Shown here: positions 44,143-45,645 of the stretch, in pieces
How the letters are laid out: each line of letters starts with the position of its first letter
Position numbering within the stretch: position 1 is the stretch's first letter
DNA from: Pseudoxanthomonas sp. F37
GTDB lineage: Bacteria; Pseudomonadota; Gammaproteobacteria; Xanthomonadales; Xanthomonadaceae
Length of the DNA: 64,000 nucleotides
Assembly (NCBI RefSeq): GCF_022965755.1
Contig: NZ_CP095187.1
Location: 1,426,001-1,490,000, forward strand
Reading direction: 5' to 3'
Program-made: the position numbers and the translations under genes
Notes under the pieces: generated by a model
What the model was told of the DNA's origin: nothing
Databases searched by the model: none
Seen by the model: the letters and a program-made list of their open reading frames with translations, nothing else

Positions 44143-44217
44143 TGGCGCTCCCTAGGGGACTCGAACCCCTGTTTTAGCCTTGAGAGGGCCACGTCCTAAC
44201 CACTAGACGAAGGGAGC
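44143..44217 (-). tRNA. tRNA-Glu (anticodon CTC)
   Basis: Read on the minus strand: acceptor GCTCCCT pairing with AGGGAGC, D arm GTCTAGTGGTTAGGAC, anticodon stem TGGCC/GGCTA with loop CTCTCAA (CTC at the anticodon), T arm CAGGGGTTCGAGTCCCCTAG. The discriminator G and CCA end are encoded (44143-44146). A minor Glu isoacceptor reading GAG. It has its own sigma-70 promoter and a terminator. Confidence 0.96.
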
Positions 44218-44245: not shown

Positions 44246-44274
44246 AGTATATGCAACGGGCTCGCCCAGGGCAA
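44246..44274 (-). promoter_or_regulatory. Sigma-70 promoter of tRNA-Glu
   Basis: TTGCCC (-35), a 17-base spacer, then TATACT (-10) on the minus strand, 29 bases before the tRNA 5-prime end. Near-consensus in a GC-rich setting, hence convincing. The divergent pcnB gene starts about 46 bases away on the other side. Confidence 0.85.
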
Positions 44275-44319
44275 TCAGTCCGGGCCGCCGTGTGACCCCT
44301 CCTGCATGGAACCGCCGCT

Positions 44320-45645
44320 ATTACGCCGTCCACCGCTCTGCGAACCATCCCGCGCGACCAGCACCCCATCTCGCGCAAGGACATCAGCCCCAACGCGCTG
44401 CGCGTGCTCTACCGCCTGCGGGACGCAGGGTTCCAGGCGTACCTGGTGGGGGGCGCGGTCCGCGATCTGCTGGTGGGCGGGCACCCCAAGGATTTCGACG
44501 TCGCCACCGACGCCACGCCCGAACAGGTGCGCCAGCAGTTCCGCAACTGCCGCCTGATCGGGCGCCGCTTCCGCCTGGCCCACGTGGTGTTCGGGCGCGA
44601 GATCATCGAGGTCGCCACCTTCCGCGCCAATGTCGACGACGGCAGCGGCGACCGCGAGATGGACAACGGCCGGCTGGTCCGCGACAACGTGTACGGCACG
44701 GTGGAGGACGACGCGGTGCGTCGCGACTTCACCGCCAACGCGCTGTACTACGCCATCGACGACTTCTCGGTGCGCGACTACGTCGGCGGCTTCGAGGACA
44801 CGATGGCGCGGCGGCTGAAGCTGATCGGCGACCCCGAGCAGCGCTACCGCGAGGATCCCGTGCGCATGCTGCGCGCGGTGCGGCTGGCCGCGAAGCTGGA
44901 TTTCGAGATCGATGCCGATACCGCGGCGCCGATCGCGCCGCTGGCGCCCCTGCTGGCCGAGGCCGCGCCCGCCCGGCTGTTCGAGGAGATCCTGAAGCTG
45001 TTCCTGTCCGGGCATGGCGTCGCCAGCTTCGAAGGGCTGGAGCGCTTCGGCCTGCTGAAGGTGCTGTTCCCGGAGACGGCGGCCGCGCTGGCCTCCAACC
45101 GCAGCGGCGCATTGCGCCGGATGGTGCTGGCGGGCCTGGCCGGAACCGACCAGCGCGTCGCCAACGACGAACCGGTGTCGCCCGCATTCCTGTTCGCCCT
45201 GCTGCTGTGGCCCGCCTACTGCCGCGCGCTGATGGGCCTGCAGGCGCAGGGCGTGCATGCCGAGGAGGCGCAGCGCCGCGCGGCCGACCGCGTCACCCTG
45301 CACCAGTTGAATACCGTGGCGCTGCCGCGCCGCTTCTCGTTGCCGATGCAGGAGATCTGGTTGCTGCAGACCCGCTTCGGCAACCGCCAGCGCAAGCGGG
45401 TGATGCGCCTGCTGTCGCATCCGCGGTTCCGGGCGGCCTTCGATTTCCTGGTGCTGCGGCTGGCGGCCTCGCCCGAGCATGCCGAGGACGTGGCGTTCTG
45501 GCGCGAGGCGCAGACCCAGTCGGGCGAGGAACTGGCGGCCGCGCTCGGCGTCGCTCCGGCGGTGGACGCGCTGGCCGACGAGGGCGCGCCGCCCGTCAAG
45601 CGCCGCCGCCGCCGGCGCCGCAGCACGGCCGCGTCGCCGGAATGA
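44320..45645 (+). CDS. pcnB: Poly(A) polymerase I, apparent non-AUG (ATT) start
   Basis: About 441 residues. The N-terminus TIPRDQHPISRKDISPNALR matches that of E. coli PcnB, but the only canonical codon near it is GTG 44404, which would delete it. Between the in-frame TGA (44293-44295) and this segment there is no in-frame ATG, GTG or TTG, only CTG 44302, ATT 44320 and CTG 44338. E. coli pcnB is known to start at AUU, so ATT 44320 (GGA 9 bases upstream) is my choice. Nucleotidyltransferase motifs YLVGGAVRDLL and DFDVATDATP, tRNA-NucTransf region RREDP-like YREDPVRMLRAVRLAAKL, basic tail KRRRRRRRS. Adds poly(A) to RNA 3-prime ends. Confidence 0.9.
   Translation: MTPSTALRTIPRDQHPISRKDISPNALRVLYRLRDAGFQAYLVGGAVRDLLVGGHPKDFDVATDATPEQVRQQFRNCRLIGRRFRLAHVVFGREIIEVATFRANVDDGSGDREMDNGRLVRDNVYGTVEDDAVRRDFTANALYYAIDDFSVRDYVGGFEDTMARRLKLIGDPEQRYREDPVRMLRAVRLAAKLDFEIDADTAAPIAPLAPLLAEAAPARLFEEILKLFLSGHGVASFEGLERFGLLKVLFPETAAALASNRSGALRRMVLAGLAGTDQRVANDEPVSPAFLFALLLWPAYCRALMGLQAQGVHAEEAQRRAADRVTLHQLNTVALPRRFSLPMQEIWLLQTRFGNRQRKRVMRLLSHPRFRAAFDFLVLRLAASPEHAEDVAFWREAQTQSGEELAAALGVAPAVDALADEGAPPVKRRRRRRRSTAASPE

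Follow-up and report, generated by a model that had tools for sequence, protein, structure and literature searches.

The pcnB gene of Pseudoxanthomonas sp. F37, which specifies poly(A) polymerase I (PAP I), is very probably translated from an AUU codon at positions 44320–44322 (plus strand) of the 64,000-nucleotide stretch of contig NZ_CP095187.1 that was analysed, hereafter the window. Judged by sequence comparison, this start would be set by a GGA core and limited by initiation factor 3 (IF3), PAP I would be scarce as a result, and the arrangement is probably old. ATT 44320 is supported as the best start by its place nine bases past the weak Shine-Dalgarno core GGA (44308–44310, plus strand), and by an ATC, ATT or ATA that likewise follows a GGA in 88 distinct lineage loci; the window's own frame lacks a canonical start here. 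The proposed full frame (44320–45645, plus strand) comprises 441 codons and a stop.

The AUU start of Escherichia coli pcnB, reportedly described by Binns and Masters in 2002, is already known, and the one RefSeq coding sequence that was examined does begin with ATT. The extension of this start over the class and its AUC form are the interesting part: initiation of pcnB at an IF3-repressed AUU or AUC is probably much wider than the published E. coli case.

Missing canonical start and the conserved block

Downstream of an in-frame TGA (44293–44295, plus strand) the pcnB frame reads PLLHGTAAITPSTALRTIPRDQHPISRKDISPNALR and is open through to 45645. The first in-frame ATG, GTG or TTG is GTG 44404–44406 (plus strand), within the conserved domain, exactly as an earlier note on this DNA had reported. 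That note listed CTG 44302, ATT 44320 and CTG 44338 as the near-cognate codons of the interval; all three are present, and ACG 44323 and ATC 44347 should be added. Since 5 of the 33 coding-like long frames in the window, pcnB among them, have at least 36 codons between the stop and the first canonical start, such a gap is common enough that we do not use it alone as evidence. It acquires meaning because the block IPRDQH...ALR lies wholly 5′ of GTG 44404 and because relatives repeat the pattern.

This block (IPRDQHPISRKDISPNALR, 44347–44403, plus strand), which would be lost from a protein begun at GTG 44404, aligns with E. coli PAP I. Over the 88 lineage loci its 19 codons show variabilities of 0.067, 0.041 and 0.293 at codon positions 1, 2 and 3 respectively. 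Low variability at the first two positions and high variability at the third indicate selection on a protein, and hence a translated block. The earlier note had itself raised a sequencing error hiding an ATG; this is unlikely, as the source genome is a single complete contig of 3.97 Mb and the near-identical leader of locus L010 (genome G021) likewise has no canonical start. The leader of L037 (G001) lacks one too. In the draft genomes holding L037 and L038 (G003) the match to pcnB is split in two, with the parts in different frames or stretches. Those of L037 overlap, and a frame error may be present downstream in that draft; the same is possible for L038.

Comparison of leaders within the family

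Family leaders were gathered from the genus, from 80 named genomes and from the family's other genera, giving 155 anchored loci of which 117 are distinct; L102 and L106 were dropped for want of an anchor, and L048–L051, unanchored in this set, are part of the class set described below. A locus was classed with the lineage if an in-frame ATH (ATC, ATT or ATA; AUH in the RNA) stood 6–11 nt after a GGA and within 75 nt of the block, the spacing nearest 9 being chosen. The rule itself ensures that all 88 loci so classed have an ATH, at a distance from the block that is a multiple of 3. They belong to Pseudoxanthomonas, Xanthomonas, Stenotrophomonas, [Pseudomonas] boreopolis and kin, and read GGA, 8–10 nt, then ATC (62 loci), ATT (25) or ATA (1). 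GGA, as a 3-nt match to the anti-Shine-Dalgarno complement, is found in 88/88. The spacing is 9 nt in 77 loci, 10 in 8 and 8 in 3; with these 11 departures from 9, the pcnB frame is not maintained over the bases that separate GGA from ATH. Among the 51 Xanthomonas- or Stenotrophomonas-type loci, an excess of third-position variation is absent 5′ of the ATH (p 0.70) and present 3′ of it (p 0.04). Fourteen of the 88, the window's pcnB included, contain no in-frame ATG, GTG or TTG when read from the upstream stop, or from 210 nt out, as far as the block.

The other 29 distinct family loci (Lysobacter, Luteimonas and other genera) have no GGA-ATH site. In 27 of these an in-frame ATG precedes the block by 21 to 75 nt, often within CGATG or TGATG. 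This leaves 2/117 loci (L148 and L155) with neither a GGA-ATH site nor an ATG near the block, a result which does not follow from the classing rule. A comparison of start codons across Xanthomonadaceae pcnB genes, which the earlier note had proposed, thus separates the 88 loci from 27 with ATG among 29 others. Of the three codons that the note listed it picks out ATT 44320, which upholds its proposal of a non-AUG start; both CTG places vary and have no Shine-Dalgarno support. Its view that the unusual control of E. coli pcnB is conserved in this lineage holds, as regards the codon, for Xanthomonas, Stenotrophomonas and Pseudoxanthomonas, mostly as AUC and not AUU, and fails for most other loci of the family; limited translation or dependence on IF3 would be its predicted consequence. 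Given the prevalence of AUC and the ATG of the other genera, conservation is true of part of the family.

For a tree of PcnB proteins we took 30 AUH rows (hand-picked from 81 of sufficient length), 29 others and 3 outgroup rows. The two kinds cluster, with 2 changes of the AUH label as against 20.8 in shuffles.

Two records of this set deserve separate mention. In P. helianthi (L019/L062) the ATH site is now ATA, with an in-frame ATG 15 nt upstream; this leader looks like a replacement in progress, possibly a recent switch back to AUG. L117, in a record titled Bacillus subtilis SK7B5, bears a pcnB of the Stenotrophomonas type and is probably a contamination or a mislabelled record.

Survey of the class

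Outside the family we collected 141 pcnB loci, E. coli included, the class being the Genome Taxonomy Database (GTDB) class of the genome collection; L233 was dropped for want of an anchor. Blind to codon identity, the test asked which in-frame leader codons follow a Shine-Dalgarno match of at least 4 nt, and ranked the 61 codons that occurred 20 times or more. ATT came first (33/128, against 513/4810 for ordinary codons, p 2e-6), and in a subset of 109 loci, picked manually from the draw order so that no family contributed more than one, it stood behind such a match in 29/108 (p 2e-6). The association is confined to the pcnB frame, the other two frames giving 8/58 and 8/77; ATG (8/88), GTG (11/108) and TTG (12/84) were not raised. 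ATT is still first when a 5-nt match is required and third (second in the subset) at 3 nt. Seventeen of the 141 loci (12 of the 109) lack a canonical start; 13 of these 17 possess an ATH behind a match of at least 4 nt. The gap from stop to block is just nine codons in some loci (L213, L224 and L290).

Two genes served as controls. The infC gene of the source genome (L203, G000:C1:1186093), which encodes IF3, starts with AUC, GGAGACTGCAACATC, in a frame without a canonical start; it reads GGAG, 8 nt, ATC, so that the distance from GGA to ATC equals that from GGA to ATT in pcnB. AUC or, less commonly, AUU stands behind a Shine-Dalgarno match in 29 of 30 class-level infC loci, the exception being L351; 27 of the 29 were placed by match coordinates, while L336 and L350, cut loci misplaced by that procedure, were read separately. 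With panC, from which L319 was dropped for want of an anchor, no locus of 29 lacked a canonical start and no ATT of 18 lay behind a Shine-Dalgarno match.

Evidence against an AUU or AUC start

Several observations weigh against the proposed start. The Shine-Dalgarno match in the lineage is GGA only, and in the 23 loci of Pseudoxanthomonas type the third-position excess is significant neither before (p 0.20) nor after the ATH (p 0.19). In 74/88 lineage loci the frame does hold some canonical codon ahead of the block or at its margin. Such codons recur at -75 (32 times, in most cases a Xanthomonas TTG) and at -81 (23 times), and an ATG lies within -75 to -21 in four (L015, L019, L025 and L036). 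A second ATH adjoins the chosen one in 37/88 (directly before it in 32, after it in 5), which leaves the exact start codon ambiguous in those loci; that of the window is single. In the class-wide test ATC (10/87) and ATA (9/71) were not raised, and TTG was weakly raised in the full set when matches of 3 nt or of 5 nt were required (p 0.01 to 0.05). Nor was the ATG of panC raised (3/30), which means that the Shine-Dalgarno test is not sensitive.

Proposed mechanism of initiation

If the proposed start is correct, initiation would occur at AUU 44320, placed by the GGA nine bases upstream, with formylmethionine as the first residue and M-TPSTALRTIPRDQH... as the product. According to passages of PMC5472188, initiation complexes formed at any codon but AUG, GUG or UUG are destabilised by IF3. 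Acting in this manner against AUU in the source organism, IF3 would cause ribosomes to begin only rarely at 44320, and rare initiation would in turn keep PAP I scarce. Expression of pcnB in E. coli is held low by AUU together with a poor binding site, as stated in part of PMC9764084.

Origin of the proposed AUU start and alternative starts

The AUH state is probably old: AUC or AUU persists across Xanthomonas, Stenotrophomonas and Pseudoxanthomonas and is met again in further families of the class, that of E. coli included, with AUG in branches such as Lysobacter and Luteimonas. E. coli, with its AUU, seems to be one instance of something that recurs over the class, and it is possible that this was the ancestral state. 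We come close to an even judgement, leaning slightly against, on the broadest form of this idea, namely that IF3-repressed starts (AUU or AUC, perhaps AUA) are an old class-wide property of pcnB in the Gammaproteobacteria through which the extent of RNA polyadenylation depends on IF3 and on the state of translation initiation, with E. coli as one case and some lineages (Lysobacter, Luteimonas) having moved to AUG.

Independent origin of the AUU of E. coli and that of the lineage, as opposed to descent, is compatible with initiation at AUU 44320, and we hold it to be a serious possibility, if on balance the less probable one. In 27 of the 29 loci from the family's other genera an ATG is present, and the family tree requires changes between the states. 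However, ATT behind a Shine-Dalgarno match is spread over many families of the class, a distribution which would also be expected if an old state had been lost repeatedly; moreover, the key forks of the family tree have 84 to 91% support and admit a change between AUH and AUG in either direction.

Initiation at another non-AUG codon, that is CTG 44302, CTG 44338 or ATC 44347, seems improbable. The place of 44338 is CTG in 72/88 lineage loci, but elsewhere it is CCC, CTC, GTC and the like, and a 3-nt Shine-Dalgarno match precedes it in only one of the 88. The place of 44302 is CTG in only 13/88, again without Shine-Dalgarno support, and that of 44347 has a 3-nt match in none.

Translation from GTG 44404, with the conserved block upstream left untranslated in the source strain, is very improbable. 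This is the first canonical codon of the frame, and GTG occupies its place in 82 of the 88 loci; yet the preceding 19 codons vary as a protein-coding sequence does and align with the solved E. coli enzyme, and a Shine-Dalgarno match of at least 4 nt precedes the place in 0/88, so we judge it an internal valine. The earlier note expected automatic annotation to truncate the protein to this codon; a mechanical list of open reading frames does give that start, but RefSeq annotates the ATT of E. coli.

Hardly credible is an internal isoleucine at the ATH with a canonical start upstream, which TGA 44293 excludes in the window and which is conceivable in some relatives (a canonical codon lies in frame 5′ of the ATH in 70/88 loci, with recurrent candidates in TTG -75 of Xanthomonas and ATG or TTG -81 of Stenotrophomonas, and with GTG -54 in Pseudoxanthomonas), because these codons vary by genus, 14/88 loci have no canonical start at all, the GGA-to-ATH stretch is off frame in 11/88, and the codons at -75 and -81 fall within the tRNA promoter stretch GGGCAATC, where they may be kept for the sake of that promoter.

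Identity of PcnB and layout of the locus

The product matches TIGR01942 with 492 bits (cut-off 305.65) over residues 18–444 in a profile search, and full-length orthologues within the genus are 81 to 96% identical. Its best solved relative is the E. coli poly(A) polymerase 3aqm (also 3aql and 3aqk), the alignment beginning two residues before IPRDQH. It is distinct from the second paralogue of this genome (G000:C1:3848931, 36% identical), which scores 388 bits with CCA-adding models and 97 bits, far under the cut-off, with the pcnB model.

Downstream of pcnB lie folK (TIGR01498), panB and panC. The ATGA at 45642–45645 comprises the pcnB stop overlapping the likely folK start, an overlap which suggests that translation of folK may be coupled to that of the weakly started pcnB. 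The pcnB start is itself spanned by an 83-codon frame (44306–44557), one base off the pcnB frame, whose ATG overlaps the Shine-Dalgarno core (ATGGA); the same ATGGA is found in 16/88 lineage loci. The off-frame ATG at 44306 could compete for ribosomes with the pcnB start. The predicted RNA folding of 44259–44360 is unremarkable (z 0.39).

A gene for tRNA-Glu (anticodon CTC; 44143–44217, minus strand; ARAGORN) is the divergent neighbour of pcnB, and a sigma-70-like promoter, predicted from a consensus match only (TTGCCC-17-TATACT, 44246–44274, minus strand), is probably that of the tRNA. GGGCAATC and AGTATA, which recur in the leader, were considered as a pcnB signal and rejected, as they are the reverse complement of this promoter match. 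The same tRNA-Glu gene lies divergently upstream of pcnB in 12/12 family loci tested and in 65/128 class-level loci (22/28, 18/50 and 25/50), mostly within a few hundred bases, a count that may be low because the flanks in the two sets of 50 were of about 500 nt. It does not occur in the 1.2-kb E. coli pcnB stretch, where gluQRS is upstream. The PcnB product can polyadenylate tRNA, as noted in part of PMC9764084; the pairing of tRNA-Glu with pcnB is an old one.

Relation to known systems and significance

Source and E. coli pcnB are alike in an AUU codon, proposed as the start in the source, and differ in that E. coli has GAGGTG where the source has GGA, in the sequence of the N-terminal leader, and in the AUC of most lineage loci. 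AUU starts are usually treated as an oddity of two genes in E. coli (PMC9410913, in part). The infC gene, ATT in E. coli and ATC in Streptomyces, is autoregulated by IF3 (PMC5472188, in part) and shares with pcnB an IF3-repressed codon behind a Shine-Dalgarno sequence, AUC in the source genome. The matches of infC are longer, however, and its AUC or AUU is nearly constant over the class, in contrast to the weak sites of pcnB in the lineage and its mixed starts in the class. Other cases are found in Streptomyces sigR, whose GTC start is repressed by IF3 (the same part of PMC5472188), and in Staphylococcus aureus, with infC AUA, cvfC1 AUU and ccpN AUA (PMC13009471, in part). They resemble pcnB as rare start codons kept in a lineage and lowering expression, but concern other genes and phyla and have experimental support, the source pcnB start being deduced by comparison. 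The literature searched, which included few subscription papers and some sources in part, yielded no account of pcnB starting at a codon other than AUG in any organism but E. coli.

Gene callers limited to ATG, GTG and TTG would misplace the N-terminus of PcnB in such genomes. If an IF3-repressed start is true over much of the class, and as AUC in most loci of the lineage, selection would have long held the translation of PAP I low. The setting of the polyadenylation level by IF3 would then become testable in natural AUG/AUH pairs, as offered by Lysobacter and Luteimonas if these have moved to AUG.
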